In this document: positions 1-56,129 of the stretch, in pieces
Numbering within the stretch: the first letter of the stretch is position 1
Layout of the letters: the number at the start of each line of letters is the position of its first letter
Assembly: GCA_946612115.1 (NCBI GenBank)
Contig: CAMOEI010000003.1
Coordinates: forward strand, 1 to 64,000
Direction: 5' to 3'
DNA length: 64,000 bases
From: an uncultured Caryophanales bacterium
GTDB lineage: Bacteria; Bacillota_I; Bacilli_A; RFN20; CAG-826
Notes under the pieces: generated by a model
What the model saw: only the letters and a program-made list of their open reading frames with translations
Told to the model about the DNA's origin: nothing
The model's database searches: none
Made by a program: the position numbers and the translations under genes

Positions 1-781
1 TTGTAATATTGATTTGTTCTTCTTTACTGATATAGGCCACTCCATCATTTCTTTGGAAACCATAATCTCCAAAGTTGGAATGGTTTCCACCTTCAATAAT
101 GACTTCTTTATAGTTAGTAGGGAAATTAGAAATATTCTCTTTATATTTTTTCTTATCAAGCACTAAGTCTTTAGTGCCATATATTGATAAGCATTTATAT
201 GAATCATTCAATTTTTTATTAGGATAACTGGCTAAAAAGATGATTCCTTTATAGGAAGTATATTTTGTTTTTGATAAATATAATGCCGCGGTGGTGCCTC
301 CTAAGGAGTGGCCCATCATATATAAATTATGATGTTTATTTAAACTTGCGACTTGATCCGCGGCATTCATATTTAATAATGGGAAATATAAAGGCATCTT
401 CATAAGGTAGACATCAATTCCCATATGGGCAATGTTACTACATAAAGGAGAATAGGCGACTGGATCAACTTTCGCGCCACTATAGAAGATGATTGCTGTA
501 TCATCATTATCTTTATTATCAAAACAATACCAATCTTGATTGATATTTAGATTAATCTCATCATCACCTTTTAAATAACTTTTCGCATTTTTACTCGCGG
601 GATAATTAAACGCAAAATAGCTAAGAACAAATAAGAAAGTTAATAGGAGTGATGAAAGTGGAATAAGAACCCCTTTCATCCATCCTTTCATCTTATGTTT
701 CTTATTTATTAATAAGATTATTAATATTGATATTGCTACCGCTAATAGAATCGCGAATAGAGAAATAAGAATATATTTCAT
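1..781 (-). CDS. Alpha/beta hydrolase, membrane-anchored (partial, C-terminus off the window)
   Basis: I translated this from the ATG at 781; it is still open at base 1, giving about 260 residues. Two hydrophobic stretches lie near the N-terminus (about residues 3-25 and 38-56), so the enzyme is probably anchored with its catalytic domain outside. The nucleophile elbow GHSLGG is present, and near the end the sequence EGGNHSNFGDYG matches the catalytic-histidine region of the Abhydrolase_5 family (PF12695). The acid is probably in the YGTKD segment. The substrate cannot be predicted. The gene is divergent from the flavoprotein gene at 888. It has a good promoter (TTGAAT, 16 bp, TATAAT) with the ATG only 8 nt after the -10 box and no ribosome binding site, suggesting a leaderless mRNA. 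Confidence 0.8.
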   Translation of the reverse strand, partial: MKYILISLFAILLAVAISILIILLINKKHKMKGWMKGVLIPLSSLLLTFLFVLSYFAFNYPASKNAKSYLKGDDEINLNINQDWYCFDNKDNDDTAIIFYSGAKVDPVAYSPLCSNIAHMGIDVYLMKMPLYFPLLNMNAADQVASLNKHHNLYMMGHSLGGTTAALYLSKTKYTSYKGIIFLASYPNKKLNDSYKCLSIYGTKDLVLDKKKYKENISNFPTNYKEVIIEGGNHSNFGDYGFQRNDGVAYISKEEQINIT

Positions 782-45430: not shown

Positions 45431-45463
45431 AAAACGCCCTTGTTATGCTTGGGCGTTTTTATT
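45431..45463 (+). terminator. Rho-independent terminator
   Basis: AAAACGCCC (45431-45439) pairs with GGGCGTTTT (45451-45459), followed by TATTT. Confidence 0.85.
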
Positions 45464-45481
45464 TATACTATAAAAAAGATT

Positions 45482-46261
45482 ATGGATTTTTTCTTATCAT
45501 CAGATTGGTTAAATAGACAGGGGCCATACGGTTTTAAACTTGATCATTTATTATCAGTTTTTATTTTGATGGGTTTAGGTATTTTACTCGCTATTTTCTT
45601 GAGAAAAAAGAACCAAAAAGTTGTTCATATTACTTTAATTGTTTTATGGGCTATTGCGACACTTCTAGAGATGGGATATTTAATCACGAGATGGGTGATA
45701 TGCATTATCGATCCAGTTAATAATCCTTTCTTAATCGATTACATGCTTCCGCTTCATAGCTGTTTCATGTTTATGTTTGTTTGTCCTTTTGCCTTATTTA
45801 GCAAAAATAAATATCTCAAAACTGCCTCTAGTAACTTTCTAGTGGTAGTCAATATGATTATGGGCTTTATCACCTTATTTGTTGGTTGCCCCGCGAAAGG
45901 CTATAGCGCTTTATCATTTGCAGGATCAATTTCCATTATCTATCACACTTTAATTGTTATCGTTCCTTTAATCATGTTAGTAACTAAGTATTACGATATT
46001 CAAAAAGGTGATATTAAATTTGGTTTAATCTTGTTTGGTGTTTTAGCTTTCTTTATTTGGATATTTGATGCGATCACTAAATGTGATTATTTCTATATCT
46101 ATGATGGACACGCTTTTGGAATCTTATATGAGATAAGTGAAAATGTTCCACATATTGTCTGGACTTTACTGATAGTAACTTGCTATGTCTTAACTGCCTT
46201 AATCATTCACTATTCAATCATTTACATCAAATATTTAATAAATAAGAAAAAGGAACAATAA
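45482..46261 (+). CDS. YwaF/TIGR02206 family membrane protein
   Basis: A 259-residue protein with seven hydrophobic helices. MLPLHSCFMFMFVCPFALF and SFAGSISIIYHTLIVIVPLI (the L-P-x-H and H motifs) are the YwaF signatures. I prefer ATG 45482; TATACT/TATAAA at 45464-45474 lies only 7-12 nt before it and excludes upstream in-frame starts. The family has no proven function. Its stop overlaps the mntP-like start (TAATG). A longer relative of this fold is fused to an ABC ATPase at 53500. Confidence 0.78.
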   Translation: MDFFLSSDWLNRQGPYGFKLDHLLSVFILMGLGILLAIFLRKKNQKVVHITLIVLWAIATLLEMGYLITRWVICIIDPVNNPFLIDYMLPLHSCFMFMFVCPFALFSKNKYLKTASSNFLVVVNMIMGFITLFVGCPAKGYSALSFAGSISIIYHTLIVIVPLIMLVTKYYDIQKGDIKFGLILFGVLAFFIWIFDAITKCDYFYIYDGHAFGILYEISENVPHIVWTLLIVTCYVLTALIIHYSIIYIKYLINKKKEQ

Positions 46262-46896
46262 TGACTTTTCAAATACTAATACAAATCTTCTTTTTAGGAA
46301 TTGGTTTATCAATGGACGCTTTTAGTGTTGCTCTTGTAGATGGTCTCACCATCAAAGGAATCACTAAAGGAAAGATGTTTTTCATCGCTATTTTATTTGG
46401 TTTTATGCAAGCTCTCATGCCTTTAATTGGTTTCTGGCTAGTAGAACTAATTGAAGTAGTTGCAGGAGTTGAAGCCGGAGCAAAAGCTGGACATATCGCT
46501 ACTTTAGTCGTTGTCTGGTTAGCGTTCGCCCTTTTATTATTCGTTGGAGGAAAAATGTTATTTGAATCCATTAAAGGATTAACTAATCCTCCAGAAGAAA
46601 AGATTGAAAAAGAGTTTTCATATAAAAATATATTTCTATATTCAGTGTTAACTGCGATTGACGCCTTAGCGGCAGGAGTGGCGTTACACACTGGATTATC
46701 AAATAACTACACAGTCTTTCTACATGTCTCAATAATTCTAGTAATTACCTTCATCCTTTCTCTTATTGGTCTATTACTAGCGAAACAAATCATCAAGTTC
46801 CTAAAAGGAAAATATGAAATCGCTGGAATTATCGGAGGAAGCATCTTAATCTTGCTCGCTATTTGGGTAGTCTTAAGTCACTACTTAGGAATATAA
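46261..46896 (+). CDS. mntP: MntP-like manganese efflux pump
   Basis: A 211-residue protein with six helices. LGIGLSMDAFSVALVDGLTI and SVLTAIDALAAGVALH are the two repeat signatures of MntP (formerly DUF204), each with the conserved Asp that lies in the manganese path. Length is slightly above the usual 185-195 residues because of a charged central loop. Translationally coupled to the YwaF-like gene. No yybP-ykoY manganese riboswitch is seen upstream. Confidence 0.85.
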   Translation: MTFQILIQIFFLGIGLSMDAFSVALVDGLTIKGITKGKMFFIAILFGFMQALMPLIGFWLVELIEVVAGVEAGAKAGHIATLVVVWLAFALLLFVGGKMLFESIKGLTNPPEEKIEKEFSYKNIFLYSVLTAIDALAAGVALHTGLSNNYTVFLHVSIILVITFILSLIGLLLAKQIIKFLKGKYEIAGIIGGSILILLAIWVVLSHYLGI

Positions 46897-47820: not shown

Positions 47821-47892
47821 ATGGACATATCTTTGATTGTTCTCGTCATAATCCTAGCGATTATCCTCGAAATAAAAAAAGACCACCACTAA
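47821..47892 (+). CDS. Candidate type I toxin: 23-residue hydrophobic peptide
   Basis: ATG 47821 opens a 23-codon frame: a short polar start (MDIS), an unbroken hydrophobic helix LIVLVIILAIIL, and a charged end EIKKDHH. AAAGGAGA lies 6 nt before the ATG. This is the size and make-up of Fst/Ldr/holin-like membrane toxins. The stop lies within an inverted repeat GACCACCA...TGGTGGTC (47881-47888 and 47922-47929), as in those loci. An antisense promoter faces the 3' end. Family assignment is by analogy only. Confidence 0.55.
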   Translation: MDISLIVLVIILAIILEIKKDHH

Positions 47893-47905
47893 GGTGATCA
47901 AACCA
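47874..47905 (-). ncRNA. Candidate antisense RNA (antitoxin) to the peptide mRNA 3' end
   Basis: A minus-strand transcript from the TTGACA/TACTAT promoter would start near 47905 and reach the stem ATCACC/GGTGGT (47900-47883) followed by TTTTTTT at 47880-47874. It would overlap the end of the toxin reading frame. Being only about 30 nt, it may be extended by read-through. Confidence 0.4.
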
Positions 47906-47910
47906 CACTT

Positions 47911-47941
47911 ATAGTAAACCATGGTGGTCCATATTTGTCAA
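47911..47941 (-). promoter_or_regulatory. Antisense promoter at the toxin locus
   Basis: TTGACA (47941-47936) and TACTAT (47916-47911) on the minus strand are separated by 19 bp, slightly long but with a consensus -35. Confidence 0.5.
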
Positions 47942-47960
47942 CTGCCCTCAAAACCTTTCA

Positions 47961-47991
47961 CGCAAAAGAAAAGACCTACCGAAGTAGATCT
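47961..47991 (-). terminator. Terminator of the Ig-like lipoprotein operon
   Basis: On the minus strand AGATCTAC (47991-47984), a TTCG loop, and GTAGGTCT (47979-47972) form a stem with one wobble, followed by TTTCTTTT. Confidence 0.8.
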
Positions 47992-48018: not shown

Positions 48019-50820
48019 TTATTCTAATCCCATGACCATTCCGATATAGTTAACGGATTTTCCTGGTTTTAAATACATTCCCATATAATCGCCACTAGCG
48101 ATAGATTTTCTAACATTAATGGCTCTTTCAGCAATCTTGGATTGTAATGTTGCAACACCTTGTTCTGCAGCACCCCATGCTTGAGCGTATTGATTGTCAA
48201 CAATGGTTTGACCATCCGGAGTTTGAACATAAGCTTCAGCTTGTTCTTTGGTCATTCCTTGATTTTCCATTAAATTTTCAACAACACCTTCAACAACTTT
48301 TTGTCTAATAATGCTTTGAACAAGTGGAGTAAAGACTGTTGAAATATATTTTGGACTATTTGGATCTAAGTTAACTGCATTGCTTGTTGAATATGATTCA
48401 AGCATGGTCATTTGACCTAATTGTTCCGCCATAATGTTTTTAAATCCATCTAGCACTTGGTCTAATGCATCGCATGTTGCGCTGAATTCTTGATCTTCCA
48501 TTAAAGCCGCCATATTAGCAACAATTGCGCCATCGCTTAAATCTTCCTTTGTGACTAATCCAGCACCATATTGTGTTTCAACAATAACACCCATATTTTG
48601 ATCGACTAATCCTTGTTTAAATTGAGCAAGGATATTTGTAGGATCATCTAATTTGCTCATGCCTAATGAATAAGCAGTAGGACCATTATTAATTGTGAAA
48701 CGTCCACCTAAAGCTCTCTTATCATTGTCTTTGAATGCATCAGCACAAATATCTAAGGCAATAAGATTGACATAAGACATTTCTTTGCTGTCTTTGCTTA
48801 CATATGTCTTTCCTTCAGACTCTTTAGCGTTTCTTCCAATCCAACCTAAGTAGCCTGGATCTTGTTCAGATGTTTTATAGGCATCTTTAGAACCAAGTTT
48901 GATGAATGTTTGGACATAAGAGCTTGCGTTATGATCACTAAACCATGGTTCAGTACCTGTAACTTTATTCTCGAAGTAGACGTTTTGACAATCAACTTCT
49001 GGTTTATAGTGAACACTTGTTTCATTATCACTATTGGCACCAGGTTCGTCCATTAAGAAGATTCCACCACCAGCGCCAGTCATGAATGAATTTTTAATTA
49101 AGTTGTGTTTTGAACCATAAATATAAACTAAGGAGTTATATGAATCGAAGTTCTTGCATCTGTCAACAGTCATACGTGTTTCAACGCGTTCTTGACCTTC
49201 ATCGTGTTCATTTTCGCCACGAACATTTGACATAAATGTAATAAATGTCTTGCTGGATAAAACATTAGTAAAGCTAAAGTCAGTACCTTCACCTTTGAAA
49301 TTGATTAATCCACCAATGTATTTGTTGTCATCGCTTCTTTCACCATTTCCAATGAAGGTTGTATTTTTGAAATTAATTTCTCCTCCAGAACATTTGCTCC
49401 ATGTAATTAGATCGGCAGGTGTGGAGTTGTCAGAAGACCAGTTAATTCCGAATAATTCAGCGTGAGAACCTTCTGTTCCACCTTCTTTACTAACTTGAGC
49501 ACCTGGCATATCACCTTGTTCTAACGGACGACCAATTTGGCTCCAGAAAGCACGGACTTGACTAATTGCAGAAGCATCAACTTTGAAATAGTTTCCTTCG
49601 AAATTGAAATGCGTGTCTTCAGTTGTGTTTCTAGTGAAAACGCTTACGCGATCGTAAAGTGAACCAGTTAATTGAGCTTTAGCTTTTGCTTCATCAAAAG
49701 ATGGATCATATGTCTTGTAGAAATTAACGTAAGCTTCTAAATCAGAAGATGCGTTAGTCGCATATTGATTGACGGCGGCTTCAGTAACAAAGAACTCACT
49801 TGGTAAATCACTATTTGTAATTGTGAGATCTGCTTGTAAAACAATTCCTTTAGCGTCGACATCAGTTAAACCTTCACTTGCTTTGATATCATCCCAGTAG
49901 GATTTGGTTGAATCGTTGAATTTAACTGAGTTATCGAAAGCTGATAATTGTTTTGCAGTATAGACGTTAAATCCATCAACGACTTCAAATTTAAATGAGA
50001 CAGGTTCAACATGTTCATCAACTTTGTAGTAAGTTTTATCAGCGTCGACTTTGGCTTCAAATAAACCTTTAACATTATTTTTAAATGTGAATGATTTTAA
50101 ATCATTAGCAACAGTAACAAGTTCCGCAGCTGCTGCATCAGTTAATTCTTCATATTCATGAGTTGTCTCATTATATTTTGAGAATTTGATGACTAATTTT
50201 GGTCCATCATAAGTTACTGGATCAGCGTCTGGTCTAGCTGGATCAACAAATGTTGCTTTAACATTGAAGTTAAAGGCGTTTTGATTACCAACTTTATAAC
50301 TATCCGCTTCTCCTTCTTCGTTTTCATAATAAGTGGTGCGGTTTGGATTCTTGTTAGTTTGGATGTTTTCAATCTTATCTAATTTAGCGGTTCTAGCACC
50401 ATAAGAATCCATTAAAGCTGGCTCGACTAACGATACAAGAGTCATGTCTTGGGAAATGTCTTCCTTAACAGTCATTGTAACTTCTGCCTTAATTGATTCG
50501 TTTTCAACACTTGTACAAATAATTTTGGCTTGTCCGGTAGTTTTAAAAGTTACTAACCCGGTTTCAGATACTTCTGCAACATCAACATTGCCACTTGACC
50601 ATCTAACATTTTTGTTAGTAGCTTCAGTAGGTGTGACAACTGCTTGAAGTTGAAGAGTTGGTGTGTCGTGCAGATAGACGGTGTTTTTATACCCTCTAAT
50701 TGCAACGTTTGTCACCTTTGTTTCCTTTTTTGCTGGTGTATTGTTTTGAACACAACCGACCATCGCAGTTGATCCAAGTAACAAAGCAAGAGCAGGAATG
50801 ATTAACTTAGCGCTTTTCAT
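48019..50820 (-). CDS. Large surface lipoprotein with Ig-like (BIG2) domain
   Basis: A 933-residue lipoprotein; the signal peptide ends in MVGC (Cys23). Residues about 36-118 form a bacterial Ig-like group 2 domain (LQLQAVVTPTEATNKNVRWS, then VAEVSETGLVTFKTTGQAKI). Residues about 300-650 include repeated short strands such as INFKNTTFIGNG and NSLVYIYGSKHNLIKNSF that suggest a beta-helix. The rest is helical. AAAGGAGAA precedes the ATG. It is last in a minus-strand cluster with an ABC transporter and is a candidate substrate or surface partner of it. Similar to other cell-surface proteins only in the Ig domain. Confidence 0.78.
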   Translation of the reverse strand: MKSAKLIIPALALLLGSTAMVGCVQNNTPAKKETKVTNVAIRGYKNTVYLHDTPTLQLQAVVTPTEATNKNVRWSSGNVDVAEVSETGLVTFKTTGQAKIICTSVENESIKAEVTMTVKEDISQDMTLVSLVEPALMDSYGARTAKLDKIENIQTNKNPNRTTYYENEEGEADSYKVGNQNAFNFNVKATFVDPARPDADPVTYDGPKLVIKFSKYNETTHEYEELTDAAAAELVTVANDLKSFTFKNNVKGLFEAKVDADKTYYKVDEHVEPVSFKFEVVDGFNVYTAKQLSAFDNSVKFNDSTKSYWDDIKASEGLTDVDAKGIVLQADLTITNSDLPSEFFVTEAAVNQYATNASSDLEAYVNFYKTYDPSFDEAKAKAQLTGSLYDRVSVFTRNTTEDTHFNFEGNYFKVDASAISQVRAFWSQIGRPLEQGDMPGAQVSKEGGTEGSHAELFGINWSSDNSTPADLITWSKCSGGEINFKNTTFIGNGERSDDNKYIGGLINFKGEGTDFSFTNVLSSKTFITFMSNVRGENEHDEGQERVETRMTVDRCKNFDSYNSLVYIYGSKHNLIKNSFMTGAGGGIFLMDEPGANSDNETSVHYKPEVDCQNVYFENKVTGTEPWFSDHNASSYVQTFIKLGSKDAYKTSEQDPGYLGWIGRNAKESEGKTYVSKDSKEMSYVNLIALDICADAFKDNDKRALGGRFTINNGPTAYSLGMSKLDDPTNILAQFKQGLVDQNMGVIVETQYGAGLVTKEDLSDGAIVANMAALMEDQEFSATCDALDQVLDGFKNIMAEQLGQMTMLESYSTSNAVNLDPNSPKYISTVFTPLVQSIIRQKVVEGVVENLMENQGMTKEQAEAYVQTPDGQTIVDNQYAQAWGAAEQGVATLQSKIAERAINVRKSIASGDYMGMYLKPGKSVNYIGMVMGLE

Positions 50821-50856
50821 AATATTCTCCTTTATATATGGCTTGTTAATTATAAA

Positions 50857-51393
50857 TTAATTTAATATAAATGCAACATGCATCTCGACCCCTGACATAT
50901 CAGTCGAACTAATGTTTAGATAACCAGTTACTATACCAGCAGGTATTGCAGTAAATTTCATTAAACCTGTCTCATCAATAGAAACATAATTGCTTCTATT
51001 AGTGTAATAAGTCAAATCTTTCTTTGTTGCATCGTCTGGTTTAATTTGAACATCTAGCTGATATTCAGAGTTCATATTAACGCTGATATAAGTTAAATCA
51101 GCAAATCTAATGCGGTAATCAATCTTTCTAACTATGACTCCTCCTTCTATTTCATTCCATACGACGTCATCGGCGTCTTTTCCGTCATCCCAAATCTCTT
51201 CTTCAGGAGGTCTTTTTTTAACAGACACAACAACGGAAGAAGTGTTTGGTTTATACATAGTTTCATTTCGTAAATCCAAAGCAGTAACATAAACTGTTTT
51301 GTTATATATTTCTGGTCTAGTTCCAAGGAAAGAAACCAAGATAATTGCAATAACATATATTACAGAAATAATAGCGATAAGAGCTTTTTTCAT
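50857..51393 (-). CDS. Small membrane-anchored protein with an Ig-like segment
   Basis: A 178-residue protein with an N-terminal hydrophobic helix (about residues 4-24) that is either a signal anchor or an uncleaved signal. The C-terminal 80 residues (YISVNMNSEYQLDVQIKPDD, then YVSIDETGLMKFTAIPAGIV) follow the BIG2 pattern also seen in the large lipoprotein. It lies 2 nt after the permease gene and 36 bp before the lipoprotein gene, so it is part of the same unit. Function unknown. Confidence 0.65.
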   Translation of the reverse strand: MKKALIAIISVIYVIAIILVSFLGTRPEIYNKTVYVTALDLRNETMYKPNTSSVVVSVKKRPPEEEIWDDGKDADDVVWNEIEGGVIVRKIDYRIRFADLTYISVNMNSEYQLDVQIKPDDATKKDLTYYTNRSNYVSIDETGLMKFTAIPAGIVTGYLNISSTDMSGVEMHVAFILN

Positions 51394-51395
51394 CT

Positions 51396-53507
51396 TTAGT
51401 TTTCCCTCCCTTCTTGTCTAGAAGTTCCGTAGGCAATAATTTTAATAATAAATAAGATAACTCTGGCCACAAAAAACATAACACCGATCGCCATAATAAT
51501 AGCAGTGGATTTAGAAGGCTCTTTGACCATAAAGAAATATGTTAAAGCAGTAACAACTCCCGCAATGACAAAAGCCAATATACTAGCTAAAGTTTCATTA
51601 GGATTATTAACAGATGAACCAACTTCAGCATAGAGTTTGTCTTGTGGCTTCATATAGTCAAGTTCAGCACACCAGAGCAAATGTCCTAAGTAAATGAACC
51701 ACATCGCAAAGAAGAGCAAGTGCCATTTAACAAATAAGACATCACTATAATGAGAATAAAGAATAATAGTTACCACTAAAGAGGCGGTCATAAGAACTGC
51801 TCTTAAAAGAAGTTTGATGGTTAATGTTTTCATATAGTTGGCAGGAGAAGCTTTTAGCAAATAGCTCGCTTTTCCTTCTCTAGAATAAATGCTTGCCATA
51901 GAAACATTACTCGCTAGAGCAATAAGCATGATAATTAAAACATTAATCGCTACTGTATATCTTTGGCCTTGGAAGGAAGTATTAATTGCGGAGAATGTTG
52001 TATTGAGCACCGCAATAGCGAGAGGAGTAATAATAAATAATAAGAATAAGGAAATGACTGTTCCAGGTGTTCTAAAGTCAACAAGAATATCTTTTATGAA
52101 GCTAGAAGTCATTGGATCGTTCTTATGATTTTTCGCCTTTAAGTAATAAGGATCGTAGCAATGTAAATGGATTCTAGGTTGTTCTTTTACCAAGACAAGG
52201 AAAGGAATATCTAATCTAGTTTGAATAATGAATCCACAGTCTGTTATTTCAGCAGTTGGGACCATTTCAAATTTAATATCCTTTGAATATTTTCTAAGGA
52301 ACTTATTGATACGTTTAACATCAATCTTTTCTCTTAAGAATAATTTTTCCTCATGGTTAAGTTTTCTTAATAAACGGCCAAGTTTGTTAACAATAATTTT
52401 TTTGTCTTTTTTTGAAATATTCTCATCAATAATCGGTTTAAATCCAAAATTATAGATACTTTCATCGTTCTTTGAAAGCTTGTAATCATGGTTAATATAT
52501 TTCTTTGAATACTCAAATGGTTTACTCGCCATTTTGAAGAATAAAGGTCGAGAAACGAAATAGGAAATAACAATGCATCCAACAATAATTGCGATGAACA
52601 CAGCGATAATCGCTCCGGTTTCCTCAGTAACAATTCTTAGATACTTTGGATTGGTACTATTTGTTTGATAGCCTCTATAACCAAGAACAAGTGCAGGGAC
52701 ATAAAATAGCGGTCCAGAATATTTTTCAATGAGCTTAGTGGCTTCCCTAAATTGTGGAAGATAAACAGTTGCCCACTTAGACGAAATTTGTAAATTTGCT
52801 GGGATCAAAGTTAATAAATAGAAGATTCCAGCGGTAGCAGCAATAGCAACAAGGATTACAAAGATGGTTTGAATGCCCTGGTATTTTTTGAAGAATGAAA
52901 GAACATACTTGTATGGCAAAGAAAGAACTGCAGAAATAGTGGTGATAGTTAACGATATAATTAAGAATGTTAACAATAACCATGGATAAAAATACAGTGG
53001 TAAATCATTAACGATTGCATATGCGATAAATAAAGGCGCTAAAGTGACAAAGCTTTTTACTAAATCCATAATGTAAAAGACTGCAAGTTTAGAGAAAAAG
53101 ATAACTCCGTTATTACATGGATAGGTAAGCAAGACTTGATTATCTTGCGAGAAGTATAATGAGTTAGTTAATTTATGAATAACAGATATGATATCTAAGG
53201 CAATAATGAGATAAATAATCACATTGAAGAATGCGACTGGAACAATGCCTAATGCAAAGACACTCAATTTGCTCAAAATGGTAAAAACCACAACAATAAT
53301 AGCGATCATCGCCACAAAAGCAGCTGCAAAGAGAATAATCTTAGTCAAAGATTTCTTTTTGTCTGCTTTAAAAGAGATGTCTAATCTTTCTCTAAGCTGC
53401 ATCATAACAAGTGTTCTAAAACAACGCCAGTTATAAGCGAGATACTTAAAGAAGCGATTTGCTGTCGCTTTAAATTTATTCGGTTTGTTAGTTTGAGTAT
53501 TACTCAT
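51396..53507 (-). CDS. Large ABC-type permease
   Basis: A 703-residue integral membrane protein with about six hydrophobic helices in each half, separated by a soluble region (about residues 330-470) rich in Lys. The opening FKYLAYNWRCFRTLVMMQLR resembles the cytoplasmic coupling start of ABC-2-type permeases. It overlaps the ATPase fusion gene by 8 nt, so they should form one transporter. Substrate unknown. It resembles putative ABC exporter permeases of Firmicutes, but I could not name a family. Confidence 0.68.
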   Translation of the reverse strand: MSNTQTNKPNKFKATANRFFKYLAYNWRCFRTLVMMQLRERLDISFKADKKKSLTKIILFAAAFVAMIAIIVVVFTILSKLSVFALGIVPVAFFNVIIYLIIALDIISVIHKLTNSLYFSQDNQVLLTYPCNNGVIFFSKLAVFYIMDLVKSFVTLAPLFIAYAIVNDLPLYFYPWLLLTFLIISLTITTISAVLSLPYKYVLSFFKKYQGIQTIFVILVAIAATAGIFYLLTLIPANLQISSKWATVYLPQFREATKLIEKYSGPLFYVPALVLGYRGYQTNSTNPKYLRIVTEETGAIIAVFIAIIVGCIVISYFVSRPLFFKMASKPFEYSKKYINHDYKLSKNDESIYNFGFKPIIDENISKKDKKIIVNKLGRLLRKLNHEEKLFLREKIDVKRINKFLRKYSKDIKFEMVPTAEITDCGFIIQTRLDIPFLVLVKEQPRIHLHCYDPYYLKAKNHKNDPMTSSFIKDILVDFRTPGTVISLFLLFIITPLAIAVLNTTFSAINTSFQGQRYTVAINVLIIMLIALASNVSMASIYSREGKASYLLKASPANYMKTLTIKLLLRAVLMTASLVVTIILYSHYSDVLFVKWHLLFFAMWFIYLGHLLWCAELDYMKPQDKLYAEVGSSVNNPNETLASILAFVIAGVVTALTYFFMVKEPSKSTAIIMAIGVMFFVARVILFIIKIIAYGTSRQEGREN

Positions 53508-55872
53508 CTAAATCTCCGTTATCTCTAATTGTGGACATATAGAACTCTTCAAGTCCTTCTGGATGATCTTTTTCAACACCTTCCATAGTATTTTGATAAA
53601 CAATCTGTCCTTTCTTGATGATGGCAATTCTTGTACACATCTTCTCAACGACATCGATGATATGAGAGGAGAAGAAAACAATGTTGCCTTTGGCAGCGTG
53701 CTCTTTCATACACTCTTTAACTTGATAAATTGATTGAGGGTCTAGACCAGTTAAAGGTTCATCAAGAATCCATAATTTTGGTTCATGAACTAAAGCGGCC
53801 ATAATGGTCATCTTTTGTTTCATACCGTGTGAATAGGTTTGCATTCTATTATCAAATGCTTGTGTAAGTTCAAATAAATCAACGTATTTAGCGATTCTAA
53901 CATCTCTATCTTCTTTAGAAACACCATAAAGGTCAGCAATATAGTTGATATATTCTCTACCGGTTAATTTTTCATATAAAGCATAGTGATCTGGAACGTA
54001 TCCAGTAACTTTTTTGGAGTAAACAGATTGGGTTGTAACATCGTATCCACAGATTTCAATTCTTCCATCAGTGACAGGTTGAATGCCAATCGCAGATTTA
54101 ATACATGTAGATTTACCTGCTCCATTAGGACCAAGGAATCCAAAGATTTCTCCACCTTTAACTTCTAAATTGACATGGTCCGCACTTAAGCGTTTTGAAT
54201 TACCATATCGTTTTGAGAAATCAATAAATTTGAGCGATGCTTCGTTGTGGTCAATAACAATATTGTCGACTTTTTCCATATGAAGTTTCTCCTTTAATGA
54301 AATGTGTTGGAGTCTAGCAACGACTAACTTATCGTGCAGCTCTCTATGAGAGTCACTTATTCTAAAGAATAAGGAATAAATAAACAATTCGGCGAACATA
54401 ATTCCAAAATATCCAACCAAGAAAAGTGATTGATATAGAGGATAATAAACAAATTTGAATGAGCCCCATGTCCAACTAACTTTGAAGTCCATCAAATGAT
54501 AAGCGTTATCGCTAATGATATCCAGGACATAAGTGCCGTTGATAAAGAAGTAGTCTGTACCACTTCCGACTTTTTCAGGATCATAACCATCAACATAGTT
54601 ACTGAGCCATCCATTTAAAGCGAGAATAATCACGAAATACATGGTGAAAAACATCATTGAATAAAGCATTTGCTTCATCTTTGGTTTTTCAAATAAGCCC
54701 AACGCCACACACAATAGCGGCATAGTAGCCGCAGCAATATGATTGCTCCAGAAGTGGGCAACACTTACAGAGGTGAAAATAACTTCTGTGCCTGAATCAG
54801 GCCATAGCATAGCAGCGATAGCGCCGAATACATTTATAAAATAAGTAAAATAGAATAATCTCTTAAGATTAAATGCAATACAAATTGGAATAACAAATAG
54901 CGCAGTATGACATAGGTGAATTGGAAGTGATTTAACATTGAGTTTTAATACTCCATCAACTCTAGAGAACCAAGAATATGCTCCTTCGCATTGAACAAAG
55001 TTGGCTAATACTGCAAGAGAAATGCCTAAAAGTAGTAGTTTTCTAAGATTATAATCTTTATTCCTATGTATAAAATATATGCTTATTGGCAATATCACAG
55101 CAAGATAGATGAAAATACGATGCATGAATTGGAAATCATCAATTCTATAGCTTGCACCATAATTTCCAAACATTGGTTGATGAGTATTAATTAAAACTGC
55201 AAAAGTATGAGCAGGTAAACTAGCAACGTAAATCGTTAAGAAAAAGACTATGAAGTATACAATTGATTTCCATTTTAACTTAAAAGAAACTTTGTTCTTA
55301 ATATCGGAAAGTAAATCATCAATAAAGACAATCGCTGTAAGAGCAATATTAAGACCAAAGGAAATTGCAATTAAAACGTTTCGATAATCTAATGTAGTGA
55401 TGTTTGTCCAACAAGCGATATAGACAAACATGAAAATAGCTTCGATTAATAAAAGAGGAGCTGTTATATACCTAATAATGTTTTTGACAACAGTAGAACG
55501 ATAAAAAACATATAAAACAGCAATAATAGAGCAAGGGAGGAAACCAACGCAAATAAATAAGGCGAGGAAATTCAAAAACTTGTTTGTTCCATAAGGTATC
55601 CCAACTAATTCCCAGTTGCCAACACCAGGTTGAAATCCACCAGCTTCTGCGCCTTTAGCAATTTGATCAGCATTATTGTTTGATGGAAACATTGCACAGT
55701 CAATGTGGAATGTCATCATCGCAACTGCAAACATAGTAAGTGTTGAAAGCACGATTAAAAAAATCTTATAAAACTTGTCAGATAATTTTGTGAATTTCTT
55801 CAATAGAAAATAACAACCAGGAATTAGGATACCTGGCAGCAATGCTATTAAGTACAAATTGAACAAATCCAT
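53500..55872 (-). CDS. YwaF-like membrane domain fused to an ABC ATPase
   Basis: A 790-residue two-part protein. The first 530 or so residues are a polytopic membrane domain with at least ten helices, including LPIHLCHTALFVIPICIAF and AHFWSNHIAAATMPLLCVAL, which match the YwaF/TIGR02206 histidine motifs. From about residue 560 comes a complete ABC ATPase: Walker A FLGPNGAGKST, signature YSHGMKQKMTIMAAL, Walker B LWILDEPLTGLDP and H-loop SSHIID. The fusion is unusual, because ABC-2 ATPases are normally separate. It heads the four-gene cluster and probably energises the adjacent permease. Confidence 0.82.
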   Translation of the reverse strand: MDLFNLYLIALLPGILIPGCYFLLKKFTKLSDKFYKIFLIVLSTLTMFAVAMMTFHIDCAMFPSNNNADQIAKGAEAGGFQPGVGNWELVGIPYGTNKFLNFLALFICVGFLPCSIIAVLYVFYRSTVVKNIIRYITAPLLLIEAIFMFVYIACWTNITTLDYRNVLIAISFGLNIALTAIVFIDDLLSDIKNKVSFKLKWKSIVYFIVFFLTIYVASLPAHTFAVLINTHQPMFGNYGASYRIDDFQFMHRIFIYLAVILPISIYFIHRNKDYNLRKLLLLGISLAVLANFVQCEGAYSWFSRVDGVLKLNVKSLPIHLCHTALFVIPICIAFNLKRLFYFTYFINVFGAIAAMLWPDSGTEVIFTSVSVAHFWSNHIAAATMPLLCVALGLFEKPKMKQMLYSMMFFTMYFVIILALNGWLSNYVDGYDPEKVGSGTDYFFINGTYVLDIISDNAYHLMDFKVSWTWGSFKFVYYPLYQSLFLVGYFGIMFAELFIYSLFFRISDSHRELHDKLVVARLQHISLKEKLHMEKVDNIVIDHNEASLKFIDFSKRYGNSKRLSADHVNLEVKGGEIFGFLGPNGAGKSTCIKSAIGIQPVTDGRIEICGYDVTTQSVYSKKVTGYVPDHYALYEKLTGREYINYIADLYGVSKEDRDVRIAKYVDLFELTQAFDNRMQTYSHGMKQKMTIMAALVHEPKLWILDEPLTGLDPQSIYQVKECMKEHAAKGNIVFFSSHIIDVVEKMCTRIAIIKKGQIVYQNTMEGVEKDHPEGLEEFYMSTIRDNGDLDE

Positions 55873-55891: not shown

Positions 55892-55918
55892 ATTTTAACA
55901 AATATAAATATTTGGTCA
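55892..55918 (-). promoter_or_regulatory. Promoter of the YwaF-ABC cluster
   Basis: On the minus strand TTGACC (55918-55913), 15 bp, and TGTTAAAAT with TAAAAT at 55897-55892. A transcript would start about 12 nt before the ATG at 55872. Confidence 0.5.
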
Positions 55919-56129
55919 AGCACTATTTTTTGCATAATTTTTTTACAAGAAAATTACACGATTTTTGACGAGAAAAACGCAAAAATTTCCGAAAAATAAA
56001 GTTATTTTTGCAAAAACGGCCATTTTACAAAAACGCCATTTTTTTAAAAAATTAATTTTGAATCGACTAACCTACTAAATGTAATAATTATTAGATTTTG
56101 ATATACAAAATGAACATTCAAAAAAGCAC
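55919..56129. other. AT-rich intergenic stretch with a tandem near-repeat
   Basis: About 210 bp of A- and T-tracts. CAAAAACGGCCATTTTA (56011-56027) is followed at once by CAAAAACGCCATTTTT (56028-56043), a near-perfect tandem pair. No gene seen. It lies upstream of the YwaF-ABC cluster. Confidence 0.5.

Follow-up and report, generated by a model that had tools for sequence, protein, structure and literature searches.

Human TMEM164 is a cysteine-dependent acyltransferase (transacylase) (PMC13276253), and LhaT (YpjA, DUF1405) of Bacillus, a lipoprotein N-acetyltransferase that acts on the outer face, has been placed in the ATGY superfamily, which it shares with TMEM164/YwaF (PMC12345273). The original prediction on the locus described here held that YwaF has no known function; this view has to be abandoned, as YwaF belongs to the TMEM164 family, whose human member is an acyltransferase and whose superfamily includes LhaT, and as the NCBIfam family TIGR02206 is named 'TMEM164-related integral membrane acyltransferase'. 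Among ABC systems, those to be compared are EcsAB/RasP, NosDFY(L) and the ABCA lipid transporters. To our knowledge, EcsAB has neither an acyltransferase nor Ig or lipoprotein partners.

The window (the whole stretch of 64,000 nucleotides that was analysed) carries on its minus strand four intact, operon-like ORFs (Table 1), exactly at the coordinates originally given, transcribed in the order FUS, PERM, SMALL and LP, with an 8-bp overlap between FUS and PERM, and spacings of 2 bp between PERM and SMALL and 36 bp between SMALL and LP. A literature search found no published description of this module, which agrees with the initial impression that the combination matches no known system. The simplest account using all of its parts is a single ABC machine of the envelope, encoded by the four genes together, that carries its own outer-leaflet acyltransferase and works on lipids or lipoproteins; we give this reading an even chance of being correct.

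Table 1. Features of the locus, by nucleotide position in the window or by residue of the encoded protein
Feature	Position	Strand	Description
Four-gene cluster	48019..55872	-	
FUS	53500..55872	-	790 aa
FUS, N-terminal 6-TM region	residues 1-217		
FUS, TMEM164/YwaF acyltransferase-like 6-TM domain	residues about 249-426		H251, R252, H319, C321, H378
FUS, TM13 and long helix	residues 478-536		
FUS, ABC ATPase	residues 545-790		
PERM	51396..53507	-	703 aa, polytopic ABC permease related to PF16949
SMALL	50857..51393	-	178 aa, N-terminal TM and Ig-like domain
LP	48019..50820	-	933 aa, lipoprotein
LP, Big_2 domain	residues 34-122		
LP, second Ig-like region	to about residue 282		
LP, predicted right-handed beta-helix region	residues about 290-720		
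LP, C-terminus			helical, low confidence
Promoter-like site	55892..55919	-	TTGACC-16-TAAAAT, extended -10; consensus match; 20 bp before FUS ATG
Terminator-like hairpin	47972..47991	-	about 28 bp past LP stop
Second terminator-like hairpin after LP	47881..47899	-	
Stand-alone YwaF/TMEM164 gene	45440..46261	+	
Manganese efflux (MntP-like) gene	46261..46896		

Promoter-like matches are no commoner than in shuffled sequence, so that the site before FUS is weak evidence. A purine-rich stretch precedes the start codons of PERM, SMALL and LP, and no clear one precedes that of FUS. Past LP, positions 47870-47950 of the minus strand contain a stretch resembling TTGACA...TATAAG; behind it come GACCACCA and a hairpin, GATCACC...GGTGGTC, that has a T run. 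The element could yield a short terminated transcript, allow alternative pairing, or be a plain terminator.

Conservation of the module was assessed in two sets of loci: a host-family set of 41 (40 relatives' loci plus the window), and a second set from a scan of named genomes that gave 246 relatives, of which the best 80, from Bacilli and Clostridia (including Candidatus Borkfalkia, Onthoplasma and Fiminaster, and also Christensenella), provided 78 usable loci, in partial overlap with the first set (same assemblies under other names). FUS is fused, with PERM next to it, in 41/41 host-family loci, and among the usable loci of the best 80 of 246 the fusion is found in 78/78 and PERM in 77/78. 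The third ORF is of SMALL size in 40 of the 41 host-family loci, and a lipobox protein lies directly beside the unit in 37 (30 downstream, 7 upstream); in the second set, again drawn from the best 80 of 246, SMALL and LP, scored by profile or lipobox, are present in 63/78 and 60/78 loci, respectively. On average, the fraction of other diverged loci that have a homologue is 1.0 for FUS, 0.99 for PERM, 0.65 for LP and 0.29 for SMALL (the latter by blastp, SMALL being short and fast evolving), against 0.044 or less (4.4% at most) for flanking positions, and pairwise distances correlate between the FUS N-terminal part and PERM (r 0.84) and between PERM and LP (0.81). The four genes are thus confirmed as a recurrent, sharply bounded and co-conserved module. 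Chance co-location is ruled out by the flank control, and an assembly artefact as the origin of FUS by the intact fusion in all 78 other loci (best 80 of 246).

Within the host family, 51/196 genomes, spread over 15/35 genera, have a match to the N-terminal part of FUS. Among the host-genus genomes sampled, the fusion is present in the window's own genome and in G175, and absent from 17 others. The FUS of the window is closer to that of G142, a genome of another genus (51%), than to that of the same-genus G175 (44%), while UvrB shows the opposite order (80% to G142 versus 84% to G175); together with the patchy presence in the host genus, this discordance points to transfer or to old paralogy. 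In the same-genus genomes checked, the flanks UvrB and MntP are not adjacent.

In FUS, profile matches identify residues 254-469 as TMEM164/YwaF (PF14808, E 1.7e-19, 70.7 bits for a cut-off of 25) and residues 565-707 as ABC_tran (PF00005, 1.1e-24), so that the fusion first proposed from the reading frame is borne out. FUS shares with TMEM164/YwaF proteins (PF14808, TIGR02206) a 6-TM domain above the Pfam cut-off with conserved Cys and His, and differs from them by an added 6-TM region, the fused ABC ATPase, and its permease and surface partners. H251, R252, H319, C321 and H378 are invariant across 71 aligned members. The Walker A motif, the signature, the Walker B Glu and the H-loop of the ATPase are invariant as well. 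An AlphaFold2 model of FUS (mean pLDDT 88.8) has 13 transmembrane helices, with five membrane crossings separating C321 from the cytosolic ATPase, and Lys/Arg residues number 9 in the 29 loop residues assigned inside and 8 in the about 175 assigned outside. Since the model and the positive-inside rule put H251/R252, H319/C321 and H378 on the outer side or close by, we infer that the Cys/His site lies on the extracytoplasmic side, where it would face the outer leaflet. No solved-structure relative of the TMEM164 region was found by sequence, and the coverage of the Foldseek and VIA structure searches with FUS was limited to the ATPase. An internal duplication, in which the N-terminal 6-TM region would correspond to the TMEM164 region, receives no support from hhalign.

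The H-x-C motif and H378 are retained in 39/41 FUS proteins of the host-family set, the exceptions (L068 and L069) both coming from genome G027, where H319, C321 and H378 are all lost and the whole module is nevertheless kept. The chemistry may therefore not be essential everywhere. This genome has two copies of the module, with tandem large lipoproteins downstream. The same two loci bear on the suggestion, made at the start, that the fused domain senses the cargo of the transporter: a pure sensor leaves the conserved H-x-C...H, outward-facing in the model, unexplained, while its loss in G027 leaves room for a non-catalytic role. A domain that senses cargo or lipid state and gates the transporter would be consistent with the covalent joining of a polytopic domain to the ATPase via a long helix; however, the family is enzymatic wherever tested, the catalytic-type residues are invariant, and no resemblance to known sensors is seen, which makes this explanation improbable.

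Relatives that are not fused help to delimit the site. The stand-alone YwaF encoded in the window, which TIGR02206 matches under its cut-off, has its own H-x-C and H aligned to the FUS columns; its gene abuts that of a manganese efflux (MntP-like) protein, and a third PF14808 gene of the host genome lies on a different contig. In unfused relatives, the motif is Q-x-C, with Q replacing H319 and H378 retained, so that the general pair is reduced to C321 and H378. At L163 (genome G269), a partly unfused relative, two separate but overlapping genes encode the TMEM164-like protein (634 aa, DUF805 at its C-terminus) and the ATPase (252 aa). Downstream come PERM, a Big_2 protein and one more ORF, truncated at the end of the contig. 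This arrangement speaks for the acyltransferase-like protein being a component dedicated to the ABC machine. Free-standing proteins consisting of the N-terminal region and the TMEM164 domain, with a QLC...H motif, are encoded at L161 (6029-7423) and L162 (2176-3582), where ABC genes are absent nearby; at L161, a lipoprotein-like gene lies immediately upstream.

The ATPase of FUS has the phospholipid transporters ABCA3 and ABCA4 as its nearest solved sequences (4e-58), and its best structural match is EcsA (Z 32.7), followed by ABCA4 (Z 31.6) and NosF (Z 29.2). The likeness to ABCA transporters is limited to the ATPase, as the transmembrane parts differ, and such a similarity does not fix the cargo. 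PERM of the window matches PF16949 (ABC_tran_2) under the cut-off (0.0021), and this profile matches 25/35 members of the PERM family (best 8e-15); it is the only relevant one matched, the EcsB-family profile giving no match among the 35 PERM proteins, which sets the module apart from EcsAB/RasP. No solved-structure relative of PERM was found by sequence. PERM of the window's subclade, at about 700 aa, exceeds most of its relatives (560 aa) by about 140 residues and has a mid-protein insert.

SMALL consists of a single N-terminal TM and an extracytoplasmic Ig-like domain, with a weak Big_2 match (1.6e-4, just under the cut-off; Big_2 matches 7/31 of its relatives). LP begins with a signal peptide closing in a lipobox (VG-C23), whose Cys is conserved throughout the LP alignment (60/60), and bears a Big_2 profile match at residues 46-112 (1.5e-11); in its model (pLDDT 84.2), residues 33-122 match Big_2 domains structurally (Z 14.5). 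The initial description of LP as an Ig-like lipoprotein is thus right as to the Big_2 domain and the lipobox, but incomplete, as a beta-helix is also predicted, in a region whose structural matches include right-handed beta-helix enzymes (1bhe, Z 12.3; 5olq, Z 10.4). Is LP then the cargo of the transporter, as first envisaged? A dedicated LP exporter would agree with the genetic linkage of LP, but LP has its own type II signal peptide, in which the lipobox Cys is invariant, and Lgt and LspA were found in the host genome, so that it can be made and anchored without any ABC transporter; the fused acyltransferase-like domain would moreover be left without explanation. There is thus no need to assume that the ABC unit exports LP, and we consider such a role very unlikely. 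Two Lgt (PF01790) genes are present in the 1.2 Mb genome G000, on contigs C16 and C19.

The predicted beta-helix invites a comparison with NosDFY(L), with which the module has in common a NosF-like ATPase and a multi-TM permease and, if the prediction for LP holds, would share an extracytoplasmic beta-helix partner; in contrast, NosDFY(L) lacks an acyltransferase domain, LP is an Ig-domain lipoprotein, and no link to copper or to N2O reductase is seen for the module. NosD is not among the LP structural matches listed, which says nothing for or against a kinship between LP and NosD. An ABC exporter or mechanotransmitter resembling NosDFY or EcsAB could accordingly be imagined, in which the YwaF-like domain would be structural or lipid-binding (a pseudo-enzyme) and the beta-helix LP would be the extracytoplasmic working subunit. 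The proximity of the ATPase to NosF and EcsA and the retention of the module in G027 despite its lost residues both speak for it, as do sister systems devoid of a TMEM164 domain: at L167 and L169-L172, distant PF16949-like permeases have as neighbours an ATPase, a TM-anchored protein of 800 aa and a lipoprotein, so that the plan combining an ABC transporter with surface proteins is wider than the acyltransferase. Yet the catalytic-type Cys and His are kept in 39/41 and 71/71 proteins, and a structural role needs no such invariance; this account is plausible but rather doubtful. The loci L167, L169, L170 and L171 (and L172 in part) form a second recurrent module. Its parts are a membrane protein of about 610 aa that contains an AAA-like domain, a Zn-ribbon-like protein of about 455 aa, an ABC ATPase, the PF16949-like permease, the TM-anchored protein of about 800 aa, for which Pfam gives no match, and a lipoprotein (about 370 aa).

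How could the envelope machine with a built-in acyltransferase work? It would be an ABCA/NosF/EcsA-like ABC transporter whose ATPase subunit bears a TMEM164/YwaF-type membrane acyltransferase, and ATP hydrolysis, judging from the families concerned, may move or present an acyl-bearing lipid to the outer-leaflet site. We tentatively propose that the module is an ATP-driven cell-surface acylation machine, of a type not described before, whose outward cysteine acyltransferase would receive lipid acyl donors from the transporter to which it is joined. It is likewise no more than conceivable, and less probable than not, that the targets of this ATP-driven acylation are lipids or lipoproteins of the surface, delivered by the Ig-like partners. 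The donor is probably a phospholipid, because the proteins of the acetyl-heptaprenylglycerol route were not found: LhaT (DUF1405) was detected in 0/120 genomes of the class and PcrB in 0/96 genomes of the family, positive controls being detected in both searches, and the LhaT/PcrB acetyl-lipoprotein route was consequently set aside for the host group. C321 would then hand the acyl group to an extracytoplasmic acceptor, which may be a lipoprotein amino terminus, possibly that of LP itself, or a lyso- or glycolipid, with SMALL and LP serving as docking or acceptor subunits at the cell surface. Lipoproteins are our best guess for the acceptor, a guess that draws on two things, the analogy with LhaT and the linked LP gene. 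With LhaT, whose substrates are lipoproteins, the FUS domain would share superfamily and outer-face action; LhaT differs by belonging to another Pfam family and by having no ABC partner.

The acyltransferase family concerned is known from human ferroptosis and from lipoprotein acetylation in Bacillus, and the module links it, across hundreds of uncultured gut bacteria, with an ABC transporter. No acyl-CoA is available outside the bacterial membrane, and the proposed machine, if the reading is right, shows a way for a bacterium to power or steer acyl transfer there. C321, H378 and the Walker B residues are concrete mutation targets that make the question testable. Lipoprotein acylation sets TLR2 signalling to the host, and in gut Bacilli and Clostridia the module, if the proposal is true, would be a counterpart of LhaT and apolipoprotein N-acyltransferase that is coupled to ATP.
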